Below the pieces are notes generated by a model. The model ran no database searches, was not told the origin of the DNA, and worked only from the letters and a program-made list of their open reading frames with translations. From Fidelibacterota bacterium (GTDB lineage Bacteria; Fidelibacterota; Marinisomatia; SCGC-AAA003-L08; D37C17), in assembly GCA_030748955.1 (NCBI GenBank), contig JASMKZ010000003.1:1-64000 (forward strand): DNA of 64,000 bases. The letters run 5' to 3'. Made by a program: the position numbers and the translations under genes. Positions 30,757 to 56,618 of the stretch are shown here, in pieces; the first letter of the stretch is position 1; each line of letters starts with the position of its first letter.

Positions 30757-30837
30757 AGAATAAGCGCCTAATTATTTACTACTGAGATACATACAAACTG
30801 GATTTGGAAGGAAAAATTGGAGAGGTAGGCTTAACTG
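30757..30837 (+). repeat. 81-bp direct repeat, copy 2
   Basis: It matches 29602-29682 at a constant offset of 1155 bp and about 85 percent identity by eye. Its end runs 7 bp into the 3' end of the GH16 gene. Confidence 0.75.
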
Positions 30838-32234
30838 TTGAGTATGATATTAACTAATACAACAATATCAAGTACATTTAGTTGTCCATCTTCATTTACA
30901 TCACCTGCTACATCGTAGTCATTACTAAGTATCAGGTTTACTGTCATTACTATATCAATAACATTTATTATACCATCAGCATTCACATCACCTAATACGT
31001 TATCAGATTCAGAGAGTTCACATGAACCAAAATAGTAGGGCCCCAAAACCAAATCTGTGTTTGAAAAAGTGAACTGGCGGTCGCTCCATTGGCCAAATCC
31101 ACATTCTGCAGGTAAATCTGGCTCCCAACCTGGACTATCCCAATAATCATAAAATCCATTCCTGAATTTATAGGTATAGGTGCCTGGGGATATTGAAACT
31201 GTTAACGACCAAATACCATTCCCTTGATCTGACATTAATAATCCTGAAGGGCCCGCTAATTGTGAATCTCCACCTGAAACATATACTCCTGTTCCGTCTA
31301 CCTCTTCATATTGCATATCTACCAAGAAGGTAACTGTTGGGTCTATTGGTATATCAACACAATTCCCATTATCACATGTTTGGCCTTCATCACATATTAT
31401 ATCTGCGCATGAATCTTGATATTCATATACTCGCACATAATCAATCTCCATGGGACTTTCAGTGAAACCGGAAGCAATACTTGGCTCTATAGCAATATTT
31501 AATAATAAATACAGTTCGGAATCAAATGGCCATGTATCTGAATTATAATTAGCTGGATCATAGGTGTAATGAATATTTCCATCCACACTAAATATCATTT
31601 CCTGTGCAGACCAATCGATAGTGTATATATGGAATTGACTTGAAGCAGTTGATATATATTGACCTCCTAAATTGATTGTACCCCCGTAACTTGAAGGGGT
31701 ATGAATGGCACTTTGAACATAATTTTGGTTAGATCCCCAGTGTTCCATAATATCTACTTCGCCACAAGCAGGCCAGGGGGTGGTTCCATAACCCTGAGTC
31801 TCCCAATACGCTCCTGGTTCGTTAATATTCTTTCCTAACATCCAAATTGCAGGCCAGGTGCCAAAACCTTGAGGTAGTTTTGCTCTAATTTCCACTTTCC
31901 CATAAGTGAACGCATATTTCGAGTTTAGCCTTGCTGAAGTATATTCTTTTGTGTGCCCCTGATCTGTATAGGTTTCCTTCTTGGCAACAATCTTTAAGGT
32001 GCCATTACTTACATACGAGTTGACTATACGGTCCGTATAATGTTGTACTTCACCATTATACCACCCCCCACCCAATGGTAACTGTGTTTGATGGAACCAA
32101 TTTGCTGAATTAATTGCACCGTTACCGTCAAATTCATCAGACCAGACTAATTGCCAATCCTGAGCGTGTCCGAAACTAATAGCAAGAATAGAAACTAATA
32201 ATGCATAATATTTTATTAAAGTCGTTAAAAACAT
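30831..32234 (-). CDS. Secreted GH16 endo-beta-1,3-glucanase (laminarinase) with CBM-like and dockerin-like domains
   Basis: It should cut laminarin outside the cell. A signal peptide (cleavage after residue 24, GHA-QD) leads into a GH16 domain (26-275), with WSDEFDG near the start and the catalytic motif E159-V-D161-I-M-E164. A short Cys-rich linker (CADIICDEGQTCDNGNC) follows. Next comes a beta-sandwich module (about 298-405; VTFLVDMQ, YTYKFRNG, QWSDRQF) that resembles starch-binding CBM folds. The last 60 residues carry two dockerin-type calcium loops (GDVNADGIINVID, GDVNEDGQLNVLD). The CBM module is nearly the same as the one in the GH16 gene at the right edge. The 467-residue gene is last in a minus-strand run that includes the CotH gene. 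Confidence 0.92.
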   Translation of the reverse strand: MFLTTLIKYYALLVSILAISFGHAQDWQLVWSDEFDGNGAINSANWFHQTQLPLGGGWYNGEVQHYTDRIVNSYVSNGTLKIVAKKETYTDQGHTKEYTSARLNSKYAFTYGKVEIRAKLPQGFGTWPAIWMLGKNINEPGAYWETQGYGTTPWPACGEVDIMEHWGSNQNYVQSAIHTPSSYGGTINLGGQYISTASSQFHIYTIDWSAQEMIFSVDGNIHYTYDPANYNSDTWPFDSELYLLLNIAIEPSIASGFTESPMEIDYVRVYEYQDSCADIICDEGQTCDNGNCVDIPIDPTVTFLVDMQYEEVDGTGVYVSGGDSQLAGPSGLLMSDQGNGIWSLTVSISPGTYTYKFRNGFYDYWDSPGWEPDLPAECGFGQWSDRQFTFSNTDLVLGPYYFGSCELSESDNVLGDVNADGIINVIDIVMTVNLILSNDYDVAGDVNEDGQLNVLDIVVLVNIILNS

Positions 32235-32320: not shown

Positions 32321-35300
32321 TTAGTTACCTAAAATAATGTTAACAAGCTGAACAATATCAAGCACATTTAAAACACCATCCTGATTCATATCTCCAAATA
32401 AAATATAATCATCATCATTTAAAATAGTACTTACAAGGGAAACCACATCCAGAACGTTCAATAAACCATCACTATTCATATCCCCTAGCAGAAATTGCTC
32501 CGATTCTTCATTAGATATGCCTGGAGTTGGGCTTTCAAAAAACTGCCATTCATCCACACCATCTGATACTCTGCCGTAAGAGACATCTTCGGTTTGTGCA
32601 TCAAATGAAAGACCATCTATTAAGTTTCCATATATATCATATAATCCGATATCTTCACCATCACTTGTTAGCTTGAAATTTGTATGAAGCGGACCATCTT
32701 CCTGATCGTTATCTGCCCAGATTAGTAAAAATCCCTCTCCTGATATTTCAATATTTGGGAATATCCACATATAAGGCTCACTCAAATTGTCTGTAAGTGA
32801 ATATCCTGATAAATTTATTGTTTGCTCTGTATTATAATAGAGTTCAATCCAATCTTCATATTGACCCATCTCATCAGCAATAATGGTTCCATTATCAGCT
32901 AATAATTCATTAATTAGTATTATGGGAGGGTTGTTATCTTCAACAAAAACGGCAGTAAAATCTATATTGCTAGATAAAGTTAAAGTAAGCGTGGGCTCAT
33001 ATACAACGCCAGGCCCAGCCCAATGTGAAAAAATATACCCGGAATTTGGAACGGCTGTTAACTCAATTGGGACATCATTAAAATAGGTTGCTTCCCAAGG
33101 GTTTTCAGGAATTTCTTGATCAGAGGTATATATTCTACCTCCACCCTCAGGAGTGGATGAAACTGTTATAGTAGAGGATTCTGATAACCCAAAATATGAA
33201 GATAAATGATTGTATACATAATCATGGCGCAAATTCCCAAATTGTGTTATGGTATTTACATTTTGATACCATTGACTTATACTACCTCCCCATCTATCAA
33301 TATGGTTTGGCATTTCATCTGAAATATTTACGACAGTATTTGCAATATGCTGATTAACATAATCTGGCTTAAAGCGTGTACTTAAATAAAAACAGAAATG
33401 ATTAATAAACTGAATTTGGAACTCCTGGTTCTCCATTAAACTTCTAAATAAAAACGTCGACCAGGGAGGGTTAGGCCACCCCGGTCCATTAGCCTCTAAA
33501 GCAAATTGGAGAGTGTTATGCCCATACCATTCAACAAGCCCAAAACTAAAATCCGTATCATATAATATCCATTTCCACTTGCTGCCGGTAATTTGAGGTC
33601 TCCAAAATTTGATATTATTTCCAGGCCAATCAGTATTTGCAATAAAAATTTGTGCTATATAGTAATCAATGAAGTTGTTTATATCCATTTGTTCTTCAAC
33701 AACCATGTAATTGTCCGGATTACTTAGCGGGTTATGCTCAATAAAACTTATCATATTCAAATAATCTTGATTATCCCCTTCAACAATTCCAGCATTGGCC
33801 TCTAGTTCATCTATCTCATCAGGGTCAACACCAGGATTATTATCAGCTAAAAACTCTTCATTTACTTTCTCTCTAATATTATGAATTCCCCAGTATTCTC
33901 CATTTATATACACTACGGCAGGCTTATATGCTTGATGATCAACCCCCGTATTATCCATTAGTCCAGTTGCCATACCATCTCTAAGCATTGAATTTGAACT
34001 CCAGTTTTCTCCACTATACCAATCATTCCCTGAGTTTCTAAGCACAATTGATTCAAACTCATGGATGTCTTTATCTGGGAATATCTGATAATTAATCTTA
34101 TTTGATCCATATTCTGAGCGAGCGAAAATGGATAGTGATTTCTGAGCCATTGCACGGCTCCAACCACCAAAAATCTTTACTCCCGCATCTTGACTAAACC
34201 CCAACGTTCCATCTGTTTCAAAAAATTCTATATGAATGGGCCGCTCCCAATCTTCCCAGAAATTTGCTCCAAAAAATGGCATATCACTACTTGCATTATC
34301 ACCTAAAACGTAAATCCCAATATCATTATCCCAAAAATTTTCAGGATTAGTTGACAAGGAAACAACTGGAAGATTTACCTCTTCATCAATTAAATATGTT
34401 TGTGTGGTTATTTTATTTTCTATGCAATCGGTGGAAACAGTAGCGGCTCTTAAAACAGCAGTTTGTTCAATCATTATTGGATTTTCATAAATGAATGAAT
34501 CTATCGTTGGCTTAGAGCCGTCTAAAGTATAATATACAGGATGATCAGTAAGACTTGTAGAAATCTGCACCTCTACAGCTGTCAAATAAAACCCTCCATC
34601 ATATGAAAAATCTGGATAATCACAAAATACATTATAACCTTCATCTCCATTTGATTCACCTGGTGTAGGCTCTGAAAAATACACCCAAGTCCCTGAGTCA
34701 CCAAATTGGCGACCATATGAAATATCAGTGGGTATTACAATTGGATCTACAATATCTTCAGTTACACTTTCAATATTTGTTAATAAGATAGATTCACCGG
34801 AGGATGAAATTTTAAAATTTGTATGCAAATTAGATGATCCAAAATTAAGAATCTCTGCCGCTCCCTGAGCATCAACTGGAGCACTACTCATACCTAATGT
34901 TAAAAAGGGAATAAGGCTCATATCAGATGAAATAGCATCATAATTGTGAACCTGCATTGTTAATATATTCTCATCCTCCTGCAGAACATCCAAAAAAGAA
35001 CCTACTTCAAATTTATCCGGCAATCCGCCACTGTAAATCTGGGCTTCATGCCATTCATTAGCACCCGTATTATAATTTGGAACAACCCCCGGTGTTCCAA
35101 TATTAGCCCGTGCTATCTCAACCCCATTTATGTATGCTACAAAGGCATCATCATAATCAACATGTAAAACTATATCAAGTAGATTATCGAGAGATTCAAT
35201 AGTAAAAGTTTTTCTCATAAATACTGACATAACTTGTGGAACCAAAGTTGCATCATCTCCATCTCCATACCCAAACCCGCTTGGACCAACCAACCAAGAT

Positions 35301-35701
35301 GAATCTACAAAATCGATTTCCTTCCAATTACTTGGAGGCTCCTGAGTTCCAATAAAATAACTCCAACTATCACCCCAATCTATGACGGTCTCCCAATGCT
35401 GAATTAAATATTGATCTTCTCCTGAAGCAAAAACAAGTAAATATTCATTTGGATTAATATTAATATTTGGGAATATCCACTTAAATGGTTCCTCAATATC
35501 ATCAGATAAACCATAGCCATCTAAATTAACAATAAAATCGTTAGTATTATATAATTCAATCCAATCAGGTGTATCACCATCTGATGTATAAATTGTATTT
35601 GAATTTGATGACATAATTTCATTAATATGGATCTGCGAAAATAAATCCGTAGAAATTATGATTAAAAATGCAAAAGCTAATATGTAGATATTCCTATTCA
35701 T
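32321..35701 (-). CDS. Secreted CotH-kinase-family protein with lamin-tail and dockerin-like domains
   Basis: The 1126-residue protein has a signal peptide (MNRNIYILAFAFLIIISTDLFS). A lamin-tail domain (HINEIMSSN, DWIELYNT) is interrupted by a jelly-roll insert (about 90-230). A chitobiase-C-like segment (YYTLDGSKPT) lies near 380. The CotH domain spans about 440-860 (SLSIFARSEYG, LRDGMATGLM, the metal motif YDTDFSFG). An InlB-like repeat (FSHWAGPG), a second lamin-tail domain and two dockerin loops follow. CotH of Bacillus spores is an atypical protein kinase. In secreted bacterial proteins of this layout the role is unknown, with surface or polysaccharide attachment usually suggested. Here it stands among laminarinases and ends in the same dockerin type. 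Confidence 0.85.
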   Translation of the reverse strand: MNRNIYILAFAFLIIISTDLFSQIHINEIMSSNSNTIYTSDGDTPDWIELYNTNDFIVNLDGYGLSDDIEEPFKWIFPNININPNEYLLVFASGEDQYLIQHWETVIDWGDSWSYFIGTQEPPSNWKEIDFVDSSWLVGPSGFGYGDGDDATLVPQVMSVFMRKTFTIESLDNLLDIVLHVDYDDAFVAYINGVEIARANIGTPGVVPNYNTGANEWHEAQIYSGGLPDKFEVGSFLDVLQEDENILTMQVHNYDAISSDMSLIPFLTLGMSSAPVDAQGAAEILNFGSSNLHTNFKISSSGESILLTNIESVTEDIVDPIVIPTDISYGRQFGDSGTWVYFSEPTPGESNGDEGYNVFCDYPDFSYDGGFYLTAVEVQISTSLTDHPVYYTLDGSKPTIDSFIYENPIMIEQTAVLRAATVSTDCIENKITTQTYLIDEEVNLPVVSLSTNPENFWDNDIGIYVLGDNASSDMPFFGANFWEDWERPIHIEFFETDGTLGFSQDAGVKIFGGWSRAMAQKSLSIFARSEYGSNKINYQIFPDKDIHEFESIVLRNSGNDWYSGENWSSNSMLRDGMATGLMDNTGVDHQAYKPAVVYINGEYWGIHNIREKVNEEFLADNNPGVDPDEIDELEANAGIVEGDNQDYLNMISFIEHNPLSNPDNYMVVEEQMDINNFIDYYIAQIFIANTDWPGNNIKFWRPQITGSKWKWILYDTDFSFGLVEWYGHNTLQFALEANGPGWPNPPWSTFLFRSLMENQEFQIQFINHFCFYLSTRFKPDYVNQHIANTVVNISDEMPNHIDRWGGSISQWYQNVNTITQFGNLRHDYVYNHLSSYFGLSESSTITVSSTPEGGGRIYTSDQEIPENPWEATYFNDVPIELTAVPNSGYIFSHWAGPGVVYEPTLTLTLSSNIDFTAVFVEDNNPPIILINELLADNGTIIADEMGQYEDWIELYYNTEQTINLSGYSLTDNLSEPYMWIFPNIEISGEGFLLIWADNDQEDGPLHTNFKLTSDGEDIGLYDIYGNLIDGLSFDAQTEDVSYGRVSDGVDEWQFFESPTPGISNEESEQFLLGDMNSDGLLNVLDVVSLVSTILNDDDYILFGDMNQDGVLNVLDIVQLVNIILGN

Positions 35702-35782: not shown

Positions 35783-35798
35783 TGTGATGCGTATCACA
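35783..35798. promoter_or_regulatory. Perfect CRP/FNR-family-like palindrome upstream of the CotH gene
   Basis: TGTGATGCGTATCACA matches the CRP form TGTGA-N6-TCACA exactly, with perfect half sites. It lies 82 bp before the CotH start codon, in the 185-bp gap behind the lipoprotein GH16 gene. An adjacent 7-bp hairpin (CACTATT/AATAGTG) overlaps its left side. It could switch the CotH-GH16 pair according to carbon status, if a CRP homologue exists in this genome. Confidence 0.5.
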
Positions 35799-35886: not shown

Positions 35887-36678
35887 TTATTGGTACACTT
35901 TAATCCAATCAATTATAAATTGAGATTTTCTAAAATCATCCTCCGGATCGCCTGGCCAAAACCCTCCTATAGCTTGATTTATAATTAAAAAATAATTGTT
36001 ATCAAATGGCCATTTATCATCAAAATAATCTTTTTTATCAATTCTATGATATATATTGTTATCAATAAACCAAACCAGTGATTGTGAATTCCACTCCAAT
36101 CCAAATGTATGAAATTCTATATCCATATTATCTATTATCATATTTCCACCTATTTGGGTGTTATTCATATGATTATACTTTTCAGAATGAATTGTACCAT
36201 AGATAATATCTTCATTATTTACATGTTCCATAATATCGATTTCACCACAATTTGGCCAGCCATCAGTGTATATAGTTTCACTGAGCAGCCAGATTGCCGG
36301 CCATAGACCTTTTTGTCTTGGTATCTTTGCCCTAATTTCAAACCTCCCATATTTCCAACGGGACTTTCCGCTTGTATTTATTCTACCTGATGTATAATTA
36401 GCTGTGCCGTAGCTTTCTTTAATTCCCTGAATCACTAAATTATTTTTTTCTATATATATATTATCTTGCTTGTCAGTGTATGCTTGCAATTCATTATTCA
36501 CCCATCCCGGGTCTCTAATTTCTATATTCCATTTATTTGTATCTAGACGACTCTCATTAAATTCCTCACTCCAAATAAGCTGATAATCACTTTTTAATAT
36601 CCCAATATGAGTTAGATTACTTTTATAAGACATACAAGAAAGTAACAATAATAAAATGGAAAGTATTAATATTTTCAT
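35887..36678 (-). CDS. GH16 endo-beta-1,3-glucanase, lipoprotein
   Basis: The 263-residue protein is a bare catalytic domain with a lipoprotein signal: hydrophobic residues 3-14, then LLSC with Cys15 as the lipid site. It is probably anchored in the outer membrane. WSEEFNESRLDTNKW begins the domain and E146-I-D148-I-M-E151 is the active site. WPAIWLL and the C-terminal IDWIKVYQ are also family features. It lacks the CBM and dockerin tail of its neighbours. It follows pyruvate kinase by 57 bp. Confidence 0.92.
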   Translation of the reverse strand: MKILILSILLLLLSCMSYKSNLTHIGILKSDYQLIWSEEFNESRLDTNKWNIEIRDPGWVNNELQAYTDKQDNIYIEKNNLVIQGIKESYGTANYTSGRINTSGKSRWKYGRFEIRAKIPRQKGLWPAIWLLSETIYTDGWPNCGEIDIMEHVNNEDIIYGTIHSEKYNHMNNTQIGGNMIIDNMDIEFHTFGLEWNSQSLVWFIDNNIYHRIDKKDYFDDKWPFDNNYFLIINQAIGGFWPGDPEDDFRKSQFIIDWIKVYQ

Positions 36679-38225: not shown

Positions 38226-39119
38226 TCAATTTTTCTGTTTAATGAACATCGCTGCACCCAGATGTGTAGAATTTAACTGATCTTTACTTGCCTTAATTTT
38301 AATGGAATGGTAGATAAATGATGGGCTGTACTCAGAGAGGACAGCCTCCATTGAACCTTTAAAATACGGAAATGCTCTCGATATCCCCCCACCCAAGGTA
38401 ACAACAGCCGGATCTAGGAGGTTAACCAGATGGCTAATGACTAATCCCAGTTTATGCCCAAACTCTTGCCAGATATTTTGGGCTTTTACATTACCATCTT
38501 CAGCCATTTGAAATAGTTCTTTAGGAGATTTTACCTCTGAAAATTCTATTATTGATAATTTTTCGATGCCCTCTATGGAAATCTCATCTTCCCAGACGCC
38601 CCATTTTACTGGAGAAATACCATATTCAGCTCCCATGCCATGAGAACCGGTAAATACTCTCCCTTCTATGACAACTCCAACTCCTAGTCCCGAACCCAGG
38701 GTCAAGCCAGTAATTACACTTTCTTTGCGGTAATGTCTATACCACTCCCCCCATACAAAGAGATTCGCATCATTTTCTATTTTCACAGGAATACCCAGTT
38801 CAGATTCCATTAACCCCGCCAAATTTGTATTTTGCAGCATGGTTAAATTAGGGGTATCAAGAATCAGTCCTTTCCGGCTGTCCAATGGCCCCGGTGCAGA
38901 TATGCCTAGGCCAACAATCTCATCCATACTGATATTATGTTCACTGTATAGCCTTTTAAGTTGATTGGTAAATCCAGAAATGAGGTCTGGCTTACTACCA
39001 TATTCCTTTATATAAGACTCCATTGACATACCAACTTGATTGAAATCTAAATCAAACAAGGCAGAAGTAAAGGTGGTTCCGCCAATATCCATAGTGATAA
39101 TATATTTTTTCTTATTCAT
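38226..39119 (-). CDS. ROK-family sugar kinase (probable glucokinase)
   Basis: It probably phosphorylates glucose freed from laminarin. The 297-residue protein has the ATP motif DIGGTTFTSALFDLD, the catalytic Asp in ENDANLFVWGEW, GLTLGSGLGVGVV and the second phosphate loop VTLGGGISRAFPYF. The zinc-binding CXCGXXGC motif of most ROK proteins is absent; after GSHGMGAEYGISPV the sequence reads KWGVWEDE. It starts 23 bp after the SurA-like gene. Substrate is inferred from context and not from the sequence. Confidence 0.85.
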   Translation of the reverse strand: MNKKKYIITMDIGGTTFTSALFDLDFNQVGMSMESYIKEYGSKPDLISGFTNQLKRLYSEHNISMDEIVGLGISAPGPLDSRKGLILDTPNLTMLQNTNLAGLMESELGIPVKIENDANLFVWGEWYRHYRKESVITGLTLGSGLGVGVVIEGRVFTGSHGMGAEYGISPVKWGVWEDEISIEGIEKLSIIEFSEVKSPKELFQMAEDGNVKAQNIWQEFGHKLGLVISHLVNLLDPAVVTLGGGISRAFPYFKGSMEAVLSEYSPSFIYHSIKIKASKDQLNSTHLGAAMFIKQKN

Positions 39120-40603: not shown

Positions 40604-41635
40604 TTAAAACGTGAGACTCAGGGTATAATTATGTGTATTATCAAACGTCCAAATGGTTCGATAACAATAATCCAGCTTAATGCCTTCACCACTTTTCAAC
40701 TGATATTTCATACCTGCTCCAAAAGCCGGTCCGAATTCTCCGTCAACCATGAATATACCCTTTAATCCTGAACGCAGGTAAAATTTTGTTCTAGCGCTTG
40801 GAGCAAAGGTAAACTGAGAGCCCAGATTCAAGTACTCACTGTTATTATTTGAATGGATGGCATCCACAGCTAGAATTAATTCCGAAGTCTGGCTAACCCA
40901 TGGTTTAGCTGATAGCCCAATACGGAACAGTAGAGGCAGTTCCCATCCCTGAGTTTTGAACTGACCTTCTACATTGCCATAATTACCATATTCTGAGGAT
41001 ATATCAATGGGGTTTAACAAATCAATTCCGCCATATTTTATTTTAGTGCCATAATTTGAAATGCTCATACCTATTCTAATACCATCTTTCTGGGCATCTG
41101 TCATTGAAAGAAAAGGTGTATTGATAAGAACCCCTAAATCAATGGCTGCAGCACCGGCACTACTATGCCATATTTTCGATGATATGTATTTCACGCTGGT
41201 GCCAAAAGAAAACCAGTTAACAAACTTTTTTGCATATGATAATCCAATAGAATATTCCTTTGGATGATAATATTCTCCAGTTCCATCCTGATTTTCAATG
41301 TTTGTCACTTCAATGCTCCCATAATCTAGATAGTTAAGGCTAATTCCGACGCTATTGGCATTATCAATCTTTATGGCAGATGCAATAATGTACCGATTGG
41401 TTTCTGCTATCCAGGGTTCATGAATTAACAGTAGTTCATTCTGATTGAGGTATACAATATTTGCAGGGTTCCAATAGATGGAGGTTACATCATGGGTCAT
41501 ACATACATAGGCCCCGCCCATGGCAGAAGCAGCACTGCCTACATCGATTTCAATAAAATTTGCAGATGTAGTTCCATTTCTATTCTGAGCAAATAAACTT
41601 GAGAAGATTATTATGGATGTAATAATTCTATACAT
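40604..41635 (-). CDS. PorV/PorQ-like outer-membrane beta-barrel protein
   Basis: The 343-residue protein has a signal peptide (ending SLFAQ) and then FIEIDVGSAASAMGGAYVCMTHDVTSIYWNPAN, the typical start of the PorV/UPF0164 family. It ends in a strand with terminal Phe (YTLSLTF). PorV takes part in type IX secretion by shuttling cargo from the translocon to the surface. This copy lies 9 bp after the gene for a secreted protein with a T9SS-like C-terminus, so it may serve that protein alone. Confidence 0.8.
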   Translation of the reverse strand: MYRIITSIIIFSSLFAQNRNGTTSANFIEIDVGSAASAMGGAYVCMTHDVTSIYWNPANIVYLNQNELLLIHEPWIAETNRYIIASAIKIDNANSVGISLNYLDYGSIEVTNIENQDGTGEYYHPKEYSIGLSYAKKFVNWFSFGTSVKYISSKIWHSSAGAAAIDLGVLINTPFLSMTDAQKDGIRIGMSISNYGTKIKYGGIDLLNPIDISSEYGNYGNVEGQFKTQGWELPLLFRIGLSAKPWVSQTSELILAVDAIHSNNNSEYLNLGSQFTFAPSARTKFYLRSGLKGIFMVDGEFGPAFGAGMKYQLKSGEGIKLDYCYRTIWTFDNTHNYTLSLTF

Positions 41636-44600: not shown

Positions 44601-45145
44601 GTATCATTTCCAGAAGCAGGCCATCCTTGTGTCGGCCAACTACCCGGCTTATCACTCATAGCCGGTTCATCCTGATCCGGATTAAAATATCCAAATGGTG
44701 GATAAAATCCCCAGTCTAATGTATTTGAAGGGTTATGATCCATCTCTTCACGATAACTGGTCTGCAGAAAATAAACTTCATGCTTAGAAATACTTTGGTC
44801 TTCAATCTGCCCTAAATCATCAATAATAACCGTATCCACTGTTGTTGGATTATTATCATCCTGTATATACACCTTGGCTGCAATTAAAAGGCCAATACCA
44901 TCCACCATTCTAGTGCCTGTTCCGTCATCAGGCCAAATGGATACATTGTCCAGTCCTCCAGGTGCCCAGTCTGATAATTCCGTGGTATTCTGGAAGTAGA
45001 GCAAGATTCGATTCCCATCCATATGCGATGCCCTAATTGCACTTGGGTCGCCGGCCAAATCATCTGGACCAGCATAGTCAGATTGACCTGTTAACAGGAT
45101 GAGAAATATTAATAAGCTTACGTATTTACTGAAATATTTTCTCAT
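41645..45145 (-). CDS. Large secreted protein with T9SS-type C-terminal domain
   Basis: The 1166-residue protein has a signal peptide (MRKYFSKYVSLLIFLILLTGQS). The first third is rich in Trp, Asp and Gly. An Asp-rich calcium-binding-like stretch (TDNTDNDEDGLVDESRS) lies near residue 350. A fibronectin-like segment (ILSWNNVAESS) occurs near 590. The end (VVPNPYVG, LPARCKIKIYTISGVLVDE, GMYVYHVES) is a T9SS-type sorting/adhesion domain. I know no function for the main part. It overlaps the TonB receptor gene by 4 bp (ATGA) and occupies the place SusD has in Bacteroidetes loci, so a surface glycan-binding partner is my inference. Confidence 0.7.
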   Translation of the reverse strand: MRKYFSKYVSLLIFLILLTGQSDYAGPDDLAGDPSAIRASHMDGNRILLYFQNTTELSDWAPGGLDNVSIWPDDGTGTRMVDGIGLLIAAKVYIQDDNNPTTVDTVIIDDLGQIEDQSISKHEVYFLQTSYREEMDHNPSNTLDWGFYPPFGYFNPDQDEPAMSDKPGSWPTQGWPASGNDTKWKGVWDGRFGKGVQYADLETYFVANDAQDQENLQGPDYKYYPRPGKLIQSDASAGSGLPWGGLGIRVETRGFQWNNPLVKNALFFEYNITNISDFDINEVSFGYWVDNAIGSDGNTDEVGYFDTYLDLSYSWDIDGVGLGTVVPGIMGFAFLESPGISTDNTDNDEDGLVDESRSYDKGFWEENPFGGISDVNQFLEFYNLEESDLKAHWSGDEDQDWTSSTINDDGSCNPNDDVGLDGIGPGDLNYSGPDEGECNGEPDCAEGRGCEPNFGETDISESDMIGLTTFQLFAIDEGGKLPSNNGVWFYNDSLLYEMMADTVLVQYSATPSNLVELFASGTFSLLSGQTERISMAELHSFDPLVGSPGETSIDAPALFQLKTTVQLIYETDYRFATPPRMPTLYAEAGDGQVILSWNNVAESSRDQFLPDSLQYDFEGYKIYKATDKYFKDSQLITDGFGDDLFNLPIFQCDKIDGVTGFSNFAPVFGTGYYMGDDSGLKHHFIDTDVQNGRTYYYALVAYDYGLAPTEELIYGIPPSENNWIIDLDDNEYVVGSGPNVAVVIPRVPSSSFIEPTINVSNQDLLGTGEISVNIMAKDLIKDNMDYYLTFQNDTLFNNSNTLPLMIVTSGFEIFSRSGDSLSLVYSETGGYSEAGDPKSINQNIIFESGSDYWTLNTSKDIITDIFEGLQLTIVQDVESAVIKSQGWYEVFSPDKEIIILPFPYIDHRESKIVPWDFEITFLSSDNLYIEDKVLQSDFIYDHNGLTPNANALLLNSIFDFKVKNMSFNHNASLVVHDQDGNGEYDKLKDLVLVGSVDNDGKWLGTSFVIDFRGILESTYPDPGDVYSIEFKRPFWSTDTLHFQTFSFQDSINVQVENNSLDDIRVVPNPYVGTNVFEEAILNSDLNQRRKLMFTHLPARCKIKIYTISGVLVDEIYVFNSTNKGIAYWDLLTNEGLEVSAGMYVYHVESFTEGSVGSKVGKFGVIK

Positions 45146-48100
45146 TTATAACTGATAGCTAAATTCAGCTTTATCTGCCTTGGAGCAGAGTACATGGCAG
45201 GATTCTCATATTGATCGTATACATCCGTAAAGGTACTTCTGTACCCCAGAATTTCAGTTGAATTTACAATATTGCTATATGCCCTTCCTGTTTTTGGATA
45301 CACCCAAATATCGTTTAATGTATCAAATAAATTATATATTGAGAATGACAGCCTGGCCTCTAAATCATTATTTTTCCATAAACGATAGTAGCCAGTAACA
45401 TCAACACTGTAGTTGGCAGGCTTGTAATCATTGTTGGGAAGCAGGTTAATAAGTGCAGTGACAGATTGAGAAACGGGTTCAAAAGTATAAGGAGTCCCTG
45501 AATTATAATATGCTGTTGCTGTTAATCCAAAATCATCTCTATTATACGCCAATGTTGTATTAAAAGTATGCCTTTGATCCCAACTCATGGGAATCAGTTT
45601 TGAAACAGGGTCCTTATTCTCACCTTCACGATTAAAGGATTGAAGAGGTGTATCTGCATTCCCCCGAGTGTATTGAAGCGTATAATTGCAATAGATGGCA
45701 AGGGCATTAAAGTTAACATCATACTTTAATTCTAATCCCCTTACATTACCATAGTCTTTATTTGAGTAGAGACCATATTTCACCTGATTGTATGTCTTCA
45801 AAACTTTTGTACCAAGAAGATTATATATATCCCGATAAAACATATTTATTTCTAGCGCCATAAGAGCATTTAGTTTTTGCCATAATCCAATTTCATAGGT
45901 CACTGTTTTTTCAGCTTCAATATTGGGATTTCCCAAAACGGTTTCATAATCACCTGTAGGCACAATCCAGTTGTTATGAGCATACATTGAATACATTGGC
46001 GGCATTTGGAAAAAATGACCATAACTGAAATGAACAATTGCAGCATCAGCTACCTGGTATGCAATCCCCAGTCTGGGGCTCCAAAAGGAAAATTCATTAG
46101 CCACCAAACTATCTGATTGAGAAACATTACTAATGGTATTTGCAGGATTCCTGTAATCAGAAGGATAGTAGCAGTTGGGGTTGAAATAGTCATACCTTAA
46201 GCCCAGATTTATTACCATTTCATCATATTCTGCTTTATCCTGTATAAAAAAAGAAAATTCACTTGGATTAACATCAAAGATGTCATCATCGGGAGATTGA
46301 ATTGAGTCTGGTTGAATATAGGCAGAATAGACCCCAACAAGGCTGGAGTCTGGATTTTCAATAATAAGATACTCTTTGTTATTAATTTTATAATCAGAAT
46401 AGTCAAGACCCGTTTTCAAACTATGGTTCCTATTCAATTGCATATTTAGTTTAATGCTTGATGTATGTTCCGTGGTCGTTCTACGGGTATGAGATTTGTC
46501 CATCCCCCCTGTTGAAAAACCCGGTACACCTGCAGAATAATTATCTGATATATAGCCCGTGCTATAGGGGTTTTTAAATAAGTAGCGCCCATAATAGTTT
46601 GACGTATATGAATGCTTCCCTTCAATAAAAAAAGAGCGGGTGATCATATAGTTCCACTGCATAGCCGTTAAGGAGTTACTGCTTTCACTTTTTGGTAAAC
46701 CAAAAGGATTATATTTATAGTAATGATTATACTCAATCCAATTATTTTTATTCCTTGAATGCAATATGGAAAAACGAAGATCATCAATAATGTGAAATGT
46801 AATTTTGCTAAACAGAGAGGAATTTTTTGTTGCATTCAAGGGTACAAATATGTCTGAAGGAGTTCCAATATGGTATCCAATATCTACACCTGGTATAAAT
46901 ATTGTATTTTTATATGGGTTATTCATATCAGTGGTGTTTTCATAATAATCACCCAGCGCAATGCACTGAGTTTTACTCATTTTTTCTCTGACTGTATAAT
47001 TCTCAATAAATGTTCCACTTAATTCTCTTTCACAATAGAGTTGATTATGGGTTGGAATGATACCTTGATTAAATGAACATACCGACAGTAAAATCTCACA
47101 TTCTCCATATTCATTGACGCATACGGATTCATCAAATATATAATGATTTTCTTCATCCAAAATAGCTACACCCTTGCTACTCATACAGTGGGATTCCATT
47201 TCATGTTCCCCCGTATGTTCAGATAGCCAACTGCTAGATGAGTCGCTGAGATAATTGCTCTTATCGGTTGGATTAAAGTAATGTAGCCCATTTAAGTGAT
47301 TATAGTTATCTTCTAACCTGTAATTAACAAAAAAGTTAACTTTACCTTTGATGATTGGGCCACTGAGCTGAAAACGATAATCTAGGCTTCTATTCTCATC
47401 AAGCTGATCTATTCCCGGAAAAACTTCAACGTTTGACGTAATATAATTTGCATATCCGGATTGCAGAGAGGTCTTAAATTCGTCACCACCAGATTTAGTT
47501 ACCTGGTTAACAACGCCACTCATTGCTTTGCCATACTCTGCATTGAATGTGCCGGTAATTACCTCCAATTCGCTGACTGAGCCAGTTTCAAGCTCTGTCG
47601 TGCTAGATGAACCACCATATACCTCATCAACTTTAATGCCGTCAACAAGGTAGGTAACTTCTGTACTGCGCCCACCCCTGAAATGGCCTGCTACAATACC
47701 CGCCTGCATACCTATAATTTGCCCAATGTTTTCAACTGGCATAATATCAATTTGATCAGAGGATATATTCTTTACTGAACTGGTTTGATCTTTTTTAATT
47801 GAAACCTGGTCTGCCTTTACCACTACCACATCACCTTCCAATACTGATGGAGCCATCTTAAGGGTTAATGGAGTAGTACGGTTAACCGAAACCCGTACTT
47901 CTTCAATCATTGCGTTCTTATACCCAATCATACTTAGAGAAAGATTGTATGAGCCAGGCGGGAGATTAAGAAGAAAAAAATCTCCATTTATATCCGTGGC
48001 TGTCCCCAGATTAGTTCCAAGGAGCATAATATTCACTCCGATTAAAGCCTCTGAAGTTTCCACATCAGATATTTTACCTGTAATCTTGCCAGTAGTCTGA

Positions 48101-48162
48101 GATAGACAAACTGTTGTAATTAGATTACTCAAAAAAAACAATGTTAATATTCTTAATTTCAT
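45142..48162 (-). CDS. TonB-dependent outer-membrane receptor with carboxypeptidase-regulatory domain
   Basis: This active outer-membrane importer is powered by TonB. Of its 1006 residues, a signal peptide (cleaved near CLSQ-TT) precedes a carboxypeptidase-regulatory-like domain (about 24-105; TDINGDFFLLNLPPGSY). The plug follows (about 125-240; GMQAGIVAGHFRGGRSTEVTYLVDG), then a 22-strand-type barrel. A long Cys-containing loop near residues 325-390 is unusual. The start is close to SusC-like proteins, but no SusD gene is nearby. Its position in the laminarin region suggests laminari-oligosaccharide uptake. It follows a GH16 gene by 63 bp and overlaps the next gene. Confidence 0.88.
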   Translation of the reverse strand: MKLRILTLFFLSNLITTVCLSQTTGKITGKISDVETSEALIGVNIMLLGTNLGTATDINGDFFLLNLPPGSYNLSLSMIGYKNAMIEEVRVSVNRTTPLTLKMAPSVLEGDVVVVKADQVSIKKDQTSSVKNISSDQIDIMPVENIGQIIGMQAGIVAGHFRGGRSTEVTYLVDGIKVDEVYGGSSSTTELETGSVSELEVITGTFNAEYGKAMSGVVNQVTKSGGDEFKTSLQSGYANYITSNVEVFPGIDQLDENRSLDYRFQLSGPIIKGKVNFFVNYRLEDNYNHLNGLHYFNPTDKSNYLSDSSSSWLSEHTGEHEMESHCMSSKGVAILDEENHYIFDESVCVNEYGECEILLSVCSFNQGIIPTHNQLYCERELSGTFIENYTVREKMSKTQCIALGDYYENTTDMNNPYKNTIFIPGVDIGYHIGTPSDIFVPLNATKNSSLFSKITFHIIDDLRFSILHSRNKNNWIEYNHYYKYNPFGLPKSESSNSLTAMQWNYMITRSFFIEGKHSYTSNYYGRYLFKNPYSTGYISDNYSAGVPGFSTGGMDKSHTRRTTTEHTSSIKLNMQLNRNHSLKTGLDYSDYKINNKEYLIIENPDSSLVGVYSAYIQPDSIQSPDDDIFDVNPSEFSFFIQDKAEYDEMVINLGLRYDYFNPNCYYPSDYRNPANTISNVSQSDSLVANEFSFWSPRLGIAYQVADAAIVHFSYGHFFQMPPMYSMYAHNNWIVPTGDYETVLGNPNIEAEKTVTYEIGLWQKLNALMALEINMFYRDIYNLLGTKVLKTYNQVKYGLYSNKDYGNVRGLELKYDVNFNALAIYCNYTLQYTRGNADTPLQSFNREGENKDPVSKLIPMSWDQRHTFNTTLAYNRDDFGLTATAYYNSGTPYTFEPVSQSVTALINLLPNNDYKPANYSVDVTGYYRLWKNNDLEARLSFSIYNLFDTLNDIWVYPKTGRAYSNIVNSTEILGYRSTFTDVYDQYENPAMYSAPRQIKLNLAISYK

Positions 48163-48225: not shown

Positions 48226-49782
48226 TTAATCACATGGCTGCTTATATACTTTAACATAATCAACAATGAACTCAACGGGGAATATTTCAGGTGATACTGT
48301 TCCTCCCCAGGTGCCCCCAATTGCTAAATTTATCAATAAATTAAATTTCTGATCAAATGGCCACAGTTCAAAGCCAGAGCCAAGATTATCATATGTTAAT
48401 ATTATCTGTCCATCAACAAAAAATATAATTTTGTCTTTCCTCCAAATCATTGAATAGATATGTGAGGTGCTAATATCTCCTACAGTTTTAGATTTTGTCT
48501 GTGACTGCGGCATACCATCATTATCAGGATGATTTGGATCAAAATTTGTATTATAAATAGCATTATGAATAGATGAATGTACATTATTTGGGTCTTTACC
48601 AACATATTCCATAATATCTATTTCCCCGCTTGCAGGCCACTCCCCGTAAATATTTTCAGTAGGCAGCATCCAGATAGCAGGCCAGGTTCCTTCTCCAAGT
48701 GGCAGCTGCGCTTTGACTTCTACTTTAGCATATTGCCAATCTCCTTTATGCTTTGTAGTTATTCTGCCAGAGGTATAAAGTGCATCAGCTACACCATTAT
48801 CATCAGGGTCATATGTTTCTCTGAGTGCTCGAATGTGTAATTTACCATCTGCCAGATAAATATTATCAATTTCATCTGTGTAAGCCTGCTTTTCTTCGTT
48901 AAATGCCCCAGCTGGCCATTTTTCAATATTCCATTTATCAAGATCCAATTCATCACCATCAAATTCGTCTTGCCAGACCAGTTCGTATTCTACATATGAG
49001 TCGCCTCCACACACACCACAATCATCTTCTACAGCACTGCCACCACATTCACCACTACAATCTAAGACTGCATCACCATCACATTCTCCTGTGCAGTCTA
49101 CAATTGCATCACCTCCACACTTGCCCTCACAATCACGACAATCATCCTTGCAATTGTTAGCAACAACCCAGTCACCGCAATTTCCACATACGTCAGTAAT
49201 ATTACTCCCGCCGCACTGCCCTGCACAGTCTTCTCTTCTCCCATCGCAGTCACATCTACCTTCCTGAATACCTGTACAGCCGCATTCATATATTGCCCCT
49301 AGTCCATTGCAAATGCCACATTCATCGAATATTCCCGAAGGGCAGGAGCAACCAAAGAGATCATAAACATTTCCATCACAAATACCACAAATATCCTCAA
49401 CTGCATTGCCACCGCAAACTCCTGAACAATCAAGTCCATTTTCATCTAAATTATTACCAGTTGCTATGCAATTTCCATCACAGTCATAATTACTATCTAA
49501 GATTCCATCATCATCCATATCAAATATGGTCCCATCACACACGCCACATTCATCTACAACAGCAGAGCCGCCGCATTCACCGGCACAATCAACATCAACA
49601 AGGCAGTTATCATCACAGTCATAGTTCTCTTCAGCAAATTCACAGCTATCATCATCCAAATTTGCACTTACATCAAAGTTACATGCCGTTTTTTTTGTAC
49701 ATCCAGGGACTTCACTGATCTGCGGATTGTTACAATAAATACACAGCAGCAGAAAAATGATTATATAGAAGGTTTTATACAT
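48226..49782 (-). CDS. GH16 endo-beta-1,3-glucanase with long Cys-rich repeat stalk, lipoprotein
   Basis: The 518-residue protein begins with a lipoprotein signal (LLLC, Cys14, or CIYC, Cys17). Residues 28-260 hold 37 Cys in short repeats such as CGGSAVVDECGVCDG and CSGECGGSAVEDDCGVCGG. The first module (CTKKTACNFDVSANLDDDSC) is of a kind seen in marine FCB-group surface proteins. The GH16 domain follows (265-518), with WQDEFDGDELDLDKW and the active site E387-I-D389-I-M-E392. The repeats probably form a disulfide-braced stalk that holds the enzyme away from the outer membrane. It is the first gene of the run that leads into the TonB receptor, 63 bp away. Confidence 0.92.
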   Translation of the reverse strand: MYKTFYIIIFLLLCIYCNNPQISEVPGCTKKTACNFDVSANLDDDSCEFAEENYDCDDNCLVDVDCAGECGGSAVVDECGVCDGTIFDMDDDGILDSNYDCDGNCIATGNNLDENGLDCSGVCGGNAVEDICGICDGNVYDLFGCSCPSGIFDECGICNGLGAIYECGCTGIQEGRCDCDGRREDCAGQCGGSNITDVCGNCGDWVVANNCKDDCRDCEGKCGGDAIVDCTGECDGDAVLDCSGECGGSAVEDDCGVCGGDSYVEYELVWQDEFDGDELDLDKWNIEKWPAGAFNEEKQAYTDEIDNIYLADGKLHIRALRETYDPDDNGVADALYTSGRITTKHKGDWQYAKVEVKAQLPLGEGTWPAIWMLPTENIYGEWPASGEIDIMEYVGKDPNNVHSSIHNAIYNTNFDPNHPDNDGMPQSQTKSKTVGDISTSHIYSMIWRKDKIIFFVDGQIILTYDNLGSGFELWPFDQKFNLLINLAIGGTWGGTVSPEIFPVEFIVDYVKVYKQPCD

Positions 49783-52082: not shown

Positions 52083-53078
52083 ATGAAATGCACGCTAAAA
52101 GATTTAGCCCGTGAAACAGGATTTTCCGTCTCAACTGTGTCACGCTTTCTCTGTGGTAAAAGGCGTTATTATAATCAAAAAGAAAAGTTGATTTTTGATA
52201 CAGCAAATAAATATAATTACCCATATATTCAAAACTTTTATAATAATGGAATAAAATTAAAAATATCTCTAATAACCACTATTCGAAAGGGTGAATTCTT
52301 TTCAGCATTACTATCAGATTTTCATCTAGCGGCAAAGAAAAGTAATTGTGATATTGAAGTAATAGATATTGAAAAAGATGATTTTATATACAATAAAATA
52401 GGATACTTTGCTGAGAATAAAGATGGATTATGCATATTATTCCCCGATTTAAATAAAGAAGATTGCAACATAATAGAATCCTATACCAATAAGATCCCTA
52501 TTTTATCACTTTCTCCAATTATAGATGCTTCCGTTAATACAATTACTTTTGATAATTATAAAGGTGGTTACCTCGCCGCAAAAAACTTAAAAGAGCTGGG
52601 TTATGAGAATATTGGAATAATTTCAGGCGATGATACTGTATTTGAAGCAGTTCAAAGAAGAAATGGATTTATAGATTATCTCGCATCTAATAACATGAAA
52701 TGTCAATGGGAATTTAAAGGCGACTATTCATTGGAATCAGGCAACAAAGCCTTTATAGATTTCCATAGCAAGAAGTTAAGTAATATAGGTATTTTTGGAG
52801 TGAATGATTATATGTGCTTTGGATTTATGAAATTGGCATTATTATCAGGCATCAATATTCCGGAAAAATTATCAATTATAGGATTTGACAATACGCCATT
52901 TTGCAATAATACAATACCAGAATTATCATCCATATCTACTGACTTTATTGAACTTGGAAAAAGATCCCTATCATCCCTTGAAAAATCTTTTATTAATTAT
53001 AATAAAACCGAACTTTTCACAAATTTAGTCCCAGTGGAACTTATAGAAAGATCCAGCACAAGAGACTTAATAAAATGA
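52083..53078 (+). CDS. LacI-family transcriptional regulator
   Basis: The 331-residue protein has the N-terminal LacI helix-turn-helix (LKDLARETGFSVSTVSRFL, residues 4-22), followed by a periplasmic-binding-protein-like sensor (GYLAAKNLKELGYENIGIISG, IGFDNTPFCNNTIPELSSI). It probably senses a beta-glucan-derived sugar and controls its own operon and perhaps the divergent GAPDH genes. Its stop overlaps the GH17 start by 4 bp (ATGA), so regulator and enzymes are made from one message. Confidence 0.93.
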   Translation: MKCTLKDLARETGFSVSTVSRFLCGKRRYYNQKEKLIFDTANKYNYPYIQNFYNNGIKLKISLITTIRKGEFFSALLSDFHLAAKKSNCDIEVIDIEKDDFIYNKIGYFAENKDGLCILFPDLNKEDCNIIESYTNKIPILSLSPIIDASVNTITFDNYKGGYLAAKNLKELGYENIGIISGDDTVFEAVQRRNGFIDYLASNNMKCQWEFKGDYSLESGNKAFIDFHSKKLSNIGIFGVNDYMCFGFMKLALLSGINIPEKLSIIGFDNTPFCNNTIPELSSISTDFIELGKRSLSSLEKSFINYNKTELFTNLVPVELIERSSTRDLIK

Positions 53079-53989
53079 AAAGCATTCTTTTCATCTTCCT
53101 TTCATGTATTTTTGCAAACCTTCCATATCATAGCAACGCAGTCTGCTATGGCCCTTTTAGAGATGGGCAGAGCCCTGGAGGCATTGACCCAACAGAAAAA
53201 CAATTAACAGAAGATCTTAGAATTTTATCAAAATATTGGTCCGCTTTCAGGATGTACGGCAGCAGAGGAAGCACCGAGAAAGTTCTTAAAATAATAGAAA
53301 GTGAAAAAATAACTATAAAACTATTTTTAGGTGCATGGATAGCCAATGAAACTAAAGACTCAACGGCATCTGTATCCAATATGAAAGAACTTAATAAGAC
53401 AATAGAATTGGCAAATAAATACCCTGAAATTGTTGAGGCAATAATTATTGGCAATGAAACACAGGTTTTCTGGTCATGGAATAGAGTTAACTATAATACA
53501 TTGAAAAAATATATACGATATGTTAAATCAAAAACTAAACAACCAATAACTACGGCAGATGATTTCAATTTCTGGAACAAGCCTGAGGGGTTAGAACTGG
53601 GATCAGAAGTTGACTTTATCATGGTTCATATTCATCCATTGTGGGCAGGTGCTCTGCTGAATGATGCGCTTCCTTTTGTTTCAAGAATTTATGATGAAAT
53701 AAGTGTTCTATACCCTGATAAACAAATAGTAATAGGAGAAACAGGATGGGCTACTTCGGTGCATACTGAAGGCGAGCAGTCAGAGCTAATAAATGGAATC
53801 GCAGGCATCAAAGAGCAATTAATATTTTATAATTCAATAAATGACTGGTCAAGGGAAAACGGTGTCCTGTCATTCTTTTTTGAAGCTTTTGATGAAAAAT
53901 GGAAAGGTGGTGAGCATCCTAATGAAGTAGAAAAACATTGGGGCTTAATTTATTCGGATAGAAAACCAAAGCATAATCTCAAAAAATGA
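53075..53989 (+). CDS. GH17 beta-1,3-glucanase, exported
   Basis: It cuts beta-1,3-glucan or its oligosaccharides. The 304-residue protein has a signal peptide (MKSILFIFLSCIFANLPYHSNA) and then CYGPFRDGQSPGG, the typical family start. The acid/base is Glu128 in IIIGNETQ and the nucleophile is Glu222 in VIGETGWA. There is no extra binding module or sorting domain, which suggests a periplasmic enzyme acting after TonB uptake. A lipoprotein form (Cys11) is possible but less likely. It overlaps both neighbours by 4 bp. GH17 with GH16 is the classic pairing for laminarin in marine Bacteroidetes. Confidence 0.92.
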   Translation: MKSILFIFLSCIFANLPYHSNAVCYGPFRDGQSPGGIDPTEKQLTEDLRILSKYWSAFRMYGSRGSTEKVLKIIESEKITIKLFLGAWIANETKDSTASVSNMKELNKTIELANKYPEIVEAIIIGNETQVFWSWNRVNYNTLKKYIRYVKSKTKQPITTADDFNFWNKPEGLELGSEVDFIMVHIHPLWAGALLNDALPFVSRIYDEISVLYPDKQIVIGETGWATSVHTEGEQSELINGIAGIKEQLIFYNSINDWSRENGVLSFFFEAFDEKWKGGEHPNEVEKHWGLIYSDRKPKHNLKK

Positions 53990-55635
53990 AACTTATTTTC
54001 AAATATATTCCTTATGCTATCGTAGGAATATTTGCTTTTCAACAATGTGCAGACTCTACAACTAAAAAGAACTACAAAGGACTTGTTGTATCACAGGAGC
54101 AACAAGCTTCATGGATCCGGAATTTTAATCCCTTAACCCCCGGGGGATCTGCAAGGTGGCCAACAGCAGCAGGTATCTATGAACCCTTAATGATCTATAA
54201 TTCCATGAAAGGAAAATATATCCCTTGGCTGGCAGTTAAACATGAATGGAATGTAAGAAATGACATATTAATATTGGATATAAGAAAAGATGTCAGCTGG
54301 TCAGATAGTCAACCATTTTCAGGAAAGGATGTTTTATTTACTTTTAATTTGCTTAAGGAATTTCCTGCATTTGATATACGAGCCTTATGGTCATATCTGG
54401 AAAGTGTGAAACTATTAAATGAATACGAAGTGGAATTTACGTTCTCTTCTATTTACGTACCTGGCTTAGATGCCATTGTAGGTCAAACCATTGTTCCAGA
54501 GCATATATGGTCAAAAGTAGAAGATCCAATTAAGTTTACTAACCCAGACCCAGTAGGCACAGGCCCCTATACTGAAATATTAAAGTTTCAAAATCAAGTA
54601 TGGGAACTAGGGAAAAACCCAAATTACTGGCAACCGGGAAAACCCAAAGTAGAAAAACTTACCTTTCCCGCTTTCCCTACTAATGTCCAGGCTACGTATG
54701 CACTAATAAATGGAGAGGTAGACTGGGCTGGTAATTTTATCCCCGCAATTGATCGTATTTTTGTTGATAAGAATCCAGAGAATCATCATTATTGGTTTCC
54801 ACGTTCAGGTGGATCAATATTTTTATATCCAAATACTACAAAAAAACATTTAAACAATAAAGCATTCAGGAAGGCTATCAGCTATTCGATTGATAGAGAG
54901 TTGATTGCTAAAGTCGCCATGTATGATTATACAGTTCCTGCAGATATAACGGCACTGTCTGAAGGGATGTCAAGATGGAGAGAGAATAAAAAACGAAACG
55001 AAAACTGGAATAAATTCAATCGTGATAAAGCAATAAGTCTTTTAGATAGCTTGAAATATTCATTTTCAAAAGATAAAACTTCATATGACAATAATGAACT
55101 AGCTTTTGAGATTATTGTAGTGAGTGGCTGGTCAGATTGGATTCGTGCTGCACAAATAATTTCCAGAAACTTAAAAGCTATTGGAATTAATGCTTCAGTG
55201 CGTACCTATGATTTTGGTACTTGGTTCAGCAAGCTCCAAACAGGAGATTTTGACTTGGCAATTGCATGGGCTGAAAAAGGTAATACTCCTTATAATCTCT
55301 ATAGAGGCCTCATGTCACAAAAATTAGTAAAACCAATTGATGAAACTTCATCTCTCAATTGGCACAGATATGGCAATGCGGAAATAGATGTTTTGTGCCA
55401 GCAATATGAGAAGACATCAGATCCAAAATTGATAAAAAATATTATATTTAAAATGCAGGATATCTTTATTGAAAATCTGCCTGCAATCCCATTATTCTCT
55501 GAACCAAGCTGGGGTGAATACAATACATCTAGGTTTACAAATTTCCCCAATGAGCAAAATCCTTACGCACAGCTTTCTCCGAATAATGTCCCCGAAAATC
55601 TCTTAGTCCTTATCGAACTAGAGCCTGTTAAATGA
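53986..55635 (+). CDS. ABC transporter substrate-binding lipoprotein, family 5
   Basis: The 549-residue protein has a signal ending at FQQC (Cys22), which would be lipidated. The mature part is a family 5 binding protein (LTPGGSARWPTAAGIYEPL, GKDVLFTFNLLKE, PDPVGTGPYTEIL, AFRKAISYSIDRELIAKVA). Family 5 proteins bind peptides, but a known subgroup, for example in Thermotoga beta-glucoside loci, binds cellobiose and laminari-oligosaccharides. The flanking GH17 and GH1 genes favour oligosaccharides here. It overlaps the GH17 and permease genes by 4 bp each. Confidence 0.9.
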   Translation: MKLIFKYIPYAIVGIFAFQQCADSTTKKNYKGLVVSQEQQASWIRNFNPLTPGGSARWPTAAGIYEPLMIYNSMKGKYIPWLAVKHEWNVRNDILILDIRKDVSWSDSQPFSGKDVLFTFNLLKEFPAFDIRALWSYLESVKLLNEYEVEFTFSSIYVPGLDAIVGQTIVPEHIWSKVEDPIKFTNPDPVGTGPYTEILKFQNQVWELGKNPNYWQPGKPKVEKLTFPAFPTNVQATYALINGEVDWAGNFIPAIDRIFVDKNPENHHYWFPRSGGSIFLYPNTTKKHLNNKAFRKAISYSIDRELIAKVAMYDYTVPADITALSEGMSRWRENKKRNENWNKFNRDKAISLLDSLKYSFSKDKTSYDNNELAFEIIVVSGWSDWIRAAQIISRNLKAIGINASVRTYDFGTWFSKLQTGDFDLAIAWAEKGNTPYNLYRGLMSQKLVKPIDETSSLNWHRYGNAEIDVLCQQYEKTSDPKLIKNIIFKMQDIFIENLPAIPLFSEPSWGEYNTSRFTNFPNEQNPYAQLSPNNVPENLLVLIELEPVK

Positions 55636-56618
55636 ACACATCTGTACAATATTTATTAAAAAGACTCGGCATTTATACCATTGCAGGATGGGCTGCAGTT
55701 ACGTTGAATTTTTTCATCCCCCGTATGATGCCGGGCGACCCCGTTTCTGTAATGTTTGCAAGCTTTAGAGGAAAATTAAAACCAGAAGCAATAGAAGCTC
55801 TAAAGCAAACATTTGGCTTTACAGATGAACCACTCCTTAATAAATATATTAATTATTTGAGTCATTTATTGAAAGGGGATCTTGGTATATCGACGGCTTA
55901 TTTCCCTGAAAAGGTTTCATCCATTATATTGTCCGGTTTGGGATGGACACTATTATTAGTGGGTATTTCGCTTATAATATCATTTGTAATTGGCTCATTA
56001 ATAGGTATGATTATTGCATGGAAAAGAGATGGAAAACTAGATTCTATTCTGCCTCCTAGTTTTTCTTTTATTAGTTCATTTCCATATTTTTTTACAGCAA
56101 TGTTATTACTGTATTTTTTGGGCTTTAAATTAGGGTGGTTTCCAATAAGACATGCCTATAACTCAGATTTAATTCCAGGATTTAATATTGAATTTATAGT
56201 AAGCTGCCTACATCATGCTTTACTGCCTGCAAGCACACTGATTTTTATGGGAATAGGCGGCTGGATGCTCCAAATGAGAAATAATATGATAGGGACAATC
56301 TCCACAGACTATATTTCATTTGCCAAATCAAAAGGACTGTCTCAAAAGAGAATAATGATTTGGTATGCAGCTAAAAATGCGATTCTTCCAATTATTACAA
56401 GCTTTGGTATGGCAATAGGTTTTATTCTAAATGGTACGATATTGACAGAAATTATATTTTCATATCCTGGGCAAGGCTACATCCTATTTCAAGCAGTTCA
56501 AGCTCAAGATTTTCAATTAATGCAGGGAATATTTTTAACAATTACATTATCAGTACTTGCGGCTAATTGGTTAATTGATATTTTAGTTTTAATCTTAGAT
56601 CCACGTACAAGAAAATGA
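55632..56618 (+). CDS. ABC transporter permease, DppB/OppB type
   Basis: The 328-residue inner-membrane protein has about six helices. The start (LLKRLGIYTIAGWAAVTLNFFIPRMMPGDP) is typical of DppB-type permeases, and the EAA loop (YISFAKSKGLSQKRIMIWYAAKNAILPI) contacts the ATPase. It pairs with the next permease. It has 4-bp overlaps on both sides. Confidence 0.93.
   Translation: MNTSVQYLLKRLGIYTIAGWAAVTLNFFIPRMMPGDPVSVMFASFRGKLKPEAIEALKQTFGFTDEPLLNKYINYLSHLLKGDLGISTAYFPEKVSSIILSGLGWTLLLVGISLIISFVIGSLIGMIIAWKRDGKLDSILPPSFSFISSFPYFFTAMLLLYFLGFKLGWFPIRHAYNSDLIPGFNIEFIVSCLHHALLPASTLIFMGIGGWMLQMRNNMIGTISTDYISFAKSKGLSQKRIMIWYAAKNAILPIITSFGMAIGFILNGTILTEIIFSYPGQGYILFQAVQAQDFQLMQGIFLTITLSVLAANWLIDILVLILDPRTRK

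Follow-up and report, generated by a model that had tools for sequence, protein, structure and literature searches.

A CotH-domain protein with lamin-tail domains and its association with beta-glucan enzyme genes in Neomarinimicrobiota

What would a CotH kinase domain, best matched in structure by a spore coat kinase of Bacillus, be doing among genes for polysaccharide degradation? The question is raised by one gene in a 64-kb stretch of DNA (the window, by which we mean the whole stretch analysed) from a source genome of 1.79 Mb in 355 contigs. Judging from its gene content, with four GH16 genes, a GH17, a GH1, a TonB-dependent receptor and an ABC importer, the window reads as a laminarin locus. 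The gene in question (32321-35701, minus strand) has as its upstream neighbour a laminarinase-type GH16 (35887-36678, minus) and as its downstream neighbour a GH16 with a dockerin tail (30831-32234, minus), both with an intact ExDxxE motif. Beyond these, Pfam identifies on the minus strand a ROK sugar kinase (38226-39119), a PorV-like outer-membrane protein (40604-41635), the TonB-dependent receptor (45142-48162) and a further GH16 (48226-49782), followed on the plus strand by a LacI-type regulator (52083-53078), the GH17 (53075-53989) and the ABC importer with a family-5 solute-binding protein (53986-59156), and again on the minus strand by the GH1 beta-glucosidase (59241-60623) and a GH16 with dockerin that extends beyond the window end (62536-63999). 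No SusD-type Pfam match was found among those window proteins that were scanned, and at 2-313 on the plus strand the window cuts into a Lys/Ala/Pro-rich protein made of repeated AKKPAAKKKAP units, of which it includes the C-terminal part.

The gene is one intact frame with an ATG start, encoding 1126 amino acids in a succession of domains. Residues 1-22 (35636-35701) form a hydrophobic, signal-peptide-like N-terminus, modelled as a helix at residues 2-19, and the lamin-tail (LTD) profile then matches two stretches of the protein (82.4 bits, E 3.8e-23). The first half of lamin-tail domain 1 lies at 35402-35632 (profile positions 6-73 at 35414-35638) and its second half, placed by alignment and model, would lie at 34649-34876; between them the structure model has a beta-sandwich insert of about 175 residues (residues ~101-275, 34877-35401, edges drawn by eye), strongly conserved among orthologs. 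There follow a chitobiase C-terminal/Fn3-associated domain (CHB_HEX_C_1/Fn3_assoc, residues 368-436, 34394-34600), the CotH kinase domain (PF08757, residues 508-829, 33215-34180; 184.8 bits, E 3.7e-54, cut-off 23.8), an InlB-like repeat (Flg_new_2, residues 846-921, 32939-33166), lamin-tail domain 2 (32606-32920) and a dockerin-like C-terminal tail of two F-hand repeats (32330-32488), all on the minus strand. The tail scores low against PF00404 (17.0 bits, E 0.007 by hmmscan, and 22.6-23 bits in a genome scan, the cut-off being 22.9), and the DxNxDGxxNxxD calcium pattern is kept in both repeats (residues 1072-1124). An earlier note on this DNA had described a secreted CotH kinase with an intact DTDFSFG metal motif between two laminarinases, and this description holds well: the domain and motif are there, the N-terminus is signal-like and both flanking genes are GH16 by Pfam. 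Its two lamin-tail domains are likewise both present, the first being split around the insert rather than continuous, and its dockerin tail is borne out by the two calcium-pattern repeats and weakened by the Pfam score.

The gene may also be regulated in its own right. A perfect CRP-like palindrome, TGTGATACGCATCACA (35783-35798; TGTGAN6TCACA), stands 82 nt upstream of the start codon, and the source genome holds 13 such perfect sites against none for the reversed control, of which 11 are intergenic and 4 precede dockerin genes. Most of the 13 sites lie 5' of genes whose products have a signal-like N-terminus, and one HTH_Crp_2 protein was found in the genome. Matches to consensus promoters and terminators near the CotH gene were no more frequent than chance, and a perfect site precedes the CotH ortholog in the source genome and in one other genome (G107) only. 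The palindrome suggests that the CotH gene may have a CRP-type-controlled promoter of its own, apart from the upstream GH16.

Is the kinase fold really there, and is its active site preserved? An AlphaFold2 model built from a 40-sequence alignment has a mean pLDDT of 83, falling below 50 in the dockerin tail, and its top Foldseek matches in the PDB are the Bacillus cereus CotH kinase structures 5jd9 and 5jda (E 4.8e-14, TM 0.75 by target, 15% identity). GH2 enzymes are also among the matches; these were hits of the whole model given without residue ranges, and because of them we offer, tentatively, the reading of the insert in lamin-tail domain 1 as possibly a jelly roll of the GH2 N-terminal type. 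Sequence searches of the PDB for CotH with the protein itself or with a profile of its clade found nothing; a broader CotH profile found 5jd9, and a profile of 22 CotH domains that includes the one in the window matches this entry with E 6.4e-42. Aligned by way of 5jd9, D691 (33629-33631, minus) is the equivalent of D228 of Bacillus subtilis CotH, and D715, the first residue of the DTDFSFG motif (residues 715-721, 33539-33559, minus), that of D251; the two align to an Asp pair of 5jd9 that is 23 residues apart (D224 and D247 of the chain, by our own count), the same spacing as D228/D251 in B. subtilis, where the D228Q and D251A mutants are inactive (PMC7821199). In an alignment of 126 CotH domains the D691 position is kept in 94% and the D715 position in 100%. 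In the tree of these domains the window protein falls within a supported clade (SH-aLRT 98), whose 28 members come from 27 genomes and for the most part share 40-61% identity across nearly their full length; within this clade D691 and D715 are present in every row and E611 and N696 are invariant.

These residues speak to a first alternative, namely that the protein is a catalytically idle adhesin or scaffold, its CotH fold and lamin-tail domains binding glucan or surface polymers with no phosphotransfer at all. We know of no extracellular source of ATP, the protein carries several beta-sandwich modules, and the KK pair that usually opens the CotH domain has Gln (Q520) for its first Lys and retains K521; a structural role is also among the possibilities raised in a review for cellulosomal CotH (PMC12484212). 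All of this fits a binder, and yet a mere binder would not need an Asp pair, E611 and N696 that are invariant throughout the clade, and so we regard idleness as rather unlikely. That the domain can still transfer phosphate is, on the strength of its conserved residues, a reading we place a little short of probable, and that its substrate would be a protein, as opposed to anything else, is less likely than that. The other substrate to consider is a sugar, of laminarin fragments or of a surface glycan, in the way that Fam20B acts on xylose. The lack of a known ATP source weighs against such a glycan kinase too, and although the neighbourhood is glycan-active, no phosphate-sugar enzyme was noticed beside the gene. 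CotH is described as a distant relative of Fam20C (PMC7821199), and the family of the latter also contains Fam20B, a kinase of xylose (PMC5865150); the CotH substrates demonstrated in the literature consulted, however, are proteins, and we consider phosphorylation of sugar very unlikely.

If the protein does have to do with beta-glucan, its orthologs should tell. The closest named relatives among the matches listed belong to Candidatus Neomarinimicrobiota, the phylum in which we place the host, and searches with the CotH (PF08757) and GH16 (PF00722) profiles on one set of 150 related genomes found GH16 in 25 of the 27 genomes that carry an ortholog versus 25 of the 123 others (odds ratio 49, p 1.5e-12). 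GH16 lies within 10 kb of 10 of the 28 orthologs, where random placement would expect 0.46, and in 200,000 random placements a count of 10 was never attained, it being understood that the placements ignore phylogeny and that the genomes are related; in four other CotH clades the corresponding counts are 0/19, 1/22, 4/26 and 0/18. Widening the count with catalytic-domain profiles for GH16, GH3, GH5, GH30, GH17 and GH1, and confining it to members with usable flanks (at least two flanking ORFs, many contigs being short), a beta-glucan-type glycoside hydrolase occurs within about 9 kb of 18 of 25 orthologs versus 7 of 74 members of other CotH clades; a Pfam check of representative neighbours of the orthologs returned GH5+CBM6, GH3, GH16 and GH30. 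Within Neomarinimicrobiota, then, the orthologs are distributed in a strongly non-random way with respect to GH16 and other beta-glucan genes, a bias that is not seen in three of the four other CotH clades. As an aside, a protein of about 1584 amino acids with PGA_cap, PKD and dockerin domains (L066:1134-5888 and related, cluster 14) adjoins CotH in several Neomarinimicrobiota.

Outside the phylum the picture is different. Relatives of the protein are widespread, with at least 574 confirmed stretches in Cloacimonadota, KSB1, Calditrichota, Ignavibacteriales, Bacteroidota and others, and GH16 lies within 9 kb of CotH in 3 of 50 genomes versus 0.8 expected (p ~0.045), in a set drawn mostly from other phyla with a few Neomarinimicrobiota and with a rebuilt catalytic-region GH16 profile that may miss distant members. 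An apparent pairing of GH16 with CotH across many phyla was an artefact of whole-protein profiles, produced by shared C-terminal tails, and it shrank to this count with the catalytic-region profiles; one genome (G150) was labelled GH16 by the whole-protein profiles, yet has no GH16 by Pfam. An unbiased Pfam count found no consistent immediate neighbour of CotH outside the phylum, the neighbours being mixed. Because GH16 proximity is weak and the neighbours are mixed there, the basic function of the protein would not be laminarin-specific, and the CotH-GH16 link is mainly a trait of Neomarinimicrobiota. The survey that the earlier note proposed, of whether CotH/lamin-tail genes recur beside GH16 genes, thus comes out non-random within the phylum and weak beyond it.

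Even within the host's family the link is loose. Six genomes (G008, G011, G015, G016, G019 and G022) have GH16 and no CotH by the profile searches, and in G009, the nearest relative with an ortholog, a GH16 pair is adjacent and CotH sits on a separate short contig. Taken together, these cases make the protein optional, and its position between a pair of GH16 genes a peculiarity of the source genome. Ancient synteny of CotH and GH16 had been considered and was rejected because of the arrangement in G009, in which no CotH stands between the paired GH16 genes. This same-family laminarin locus (L268, G009:C8) contains GH1, GAPDH and the two GH16 genes without CotH, and by eye shows MalQ- and glycogen-phosphorylase-like ORFs beyond the pair.

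Such looseness invites another explanation, in which the protein is a general envelope protein without any link to glucan, its neighbourhood being due to shared ancestry or to a clustering of secreted-protein genes. The weak CotH-GH16 link outside the phylum and the same-family genomes with GH16 and no CotH are what one would expect of this. However, gene order around the orthologs varies among families f1, f3, f5, f8 and f13, and clustering with beta-glucan-type genes is little or absent in three of the four other CotH clades (0/18, 1/20 and 0/11 members with usable flanks; the fourth has 6/25), both of which stand against ancestry or general clustering. We judge this explanation unlikely.

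What does the tail of the protein tell us about where it acts? From C-termini that were read, a dockerin tail is present in all 5 same-order orthologs, one of which also has a sorting tail, and a type IX sorting tail is present in all 17 orthologs outside the host's order with a readable C-terminus. The source genome itself has 61 dockerin matches (E <= 0.1), the dockerin repeat forming the extreme C-terminus at 18 of the best 20 loci, as well as 24 type IX sorting tails and a SprA match; in the window the dockerin-matching genes are 30831-32234, 60639-62501 and 62536-63999. It has four cohesin (PF00963) matches, mostly weak, the best (E 2.8e-11) in a 1551-amino-acid protein with a sorting tail; the candidates include this protein (L262) and one of 253 amino acids (L263). 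Among these few candidates no tandem-cohesin scaffoldin was identified. From the sequences, we infer that the CotH protein's tail serves for attachment or sorting and can be exchanged as a module, and the replacement of dockerin by type IX tails lends indirect support to an anchoring role. A protein with a dockerin only may instead be located in the periplasm.

Our preferred reading, which we hold to be somewhat probable, is that the protein is a secreted, multi-domain and optional accessory of beta-glucan (laminarin) use in Neomarinimicrobiota. On this reading Sec would export the protein, the binding of glycan or partner proteins would fall to the lamin-tail and beta-sandwich domains, and the C-terminal tail would put it at the cell surface beside GH16 enzymes with like tails. 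There the CotH domain might phosphorylate a surface partner, most likely on Ser/Thr of a co-localised protein, and this modification could aid assembly of the enzyme layer, comparable to the part played by CotH in the spore coat of Bacillus. A bolder version of the idea has a conserved extracellular CotH kinase phosphorylate the enzymes of the beta-glucan surface apparatus of Neomarinimicrobiota, or their anchoring partners, and thereby regulate or assemble that apparatus. This version seems to us decidedly unlikely, and if true it would make extracellular phosphorylation a part of polysaccharide utilisation. An ortholog group that tracks beta-glucan enzymes and carries an exchangeable tail provides a concrete place to test this, and should the protein turn out to be merely a binder, this would still help to annotate hundreds of such proteins in many phyla.

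How much of this is new? Among the titles and abstracts listed for CotH with laminarin, polysaccharide utilization or the lamin tail domain, none dealt with such a coupling to beta-glucan genes, and the coupling in Neomarinimicrobiota appears to be undescribed in the literature searched. The CotH/lamin-tail/dockerin architecture is not new, because it is known from clostridial cellulosomes: Cthe_0239 of Clostridium thermocellum, a cellulosomal protein of the dockerin-I kind, has the modules LTD, LTD, Fn3 and CotH (PMC6083626). Compared by module list, it shares with the window protein two lamin-tail domains, an Fn3-type domain, CotH and dockerin as well as a glycan-degrading setting, whereas it belongs to a Gram-positive cellulosome and the window protein to a laminarin locus of a bacterium with a type IX system. 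For years dockerin-bearing CotH proteins have figured in inventories of cellulosomes with no clear role attached to them, and the role of cellulosomal CotH is still called unclear (PMC12484212). In Cloacimonadota, dockerin enzymes are accompanied by a cohesin scaffoldin that has a type IX tail (PMC8542988); dockerin-tailed secreted enzymes and cohesin proteins with sorting tails are found there and in the source genome alike, although in the latter no tandem-cohesin scaffoldin was identified. A different association with polysaccharide genes is seen in Pel exopolysaccharide loci, where CotH, polyphosphate polymerase and DUF4956 occur as accessory genes (PMC7112168); the window CotH, unlike the Pel one, stands among degradation genes and has neither VTC nor DUF4956 as a partner. 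The source genome has a second CotH-lamin-tail-dockerin protein (G000:C310, L096; 964 amino acids), and three ORFs beside it cluster with VTC, DUF4956 and DUF2490 proteins of a genome of the same genus (G001, L095), a neighbourhood that resembles the Pel accessory arrangement (PMC7112168). Finally, the Bacillus spore coat kinase (5jd9, 5jda) has its fold and catalytic Asp residues in common with the window protein, but it is a small spore protein of 359 residues, whereas the window protein is predicted to be secreted and carries putative binding modules and a putative anchoring tail.
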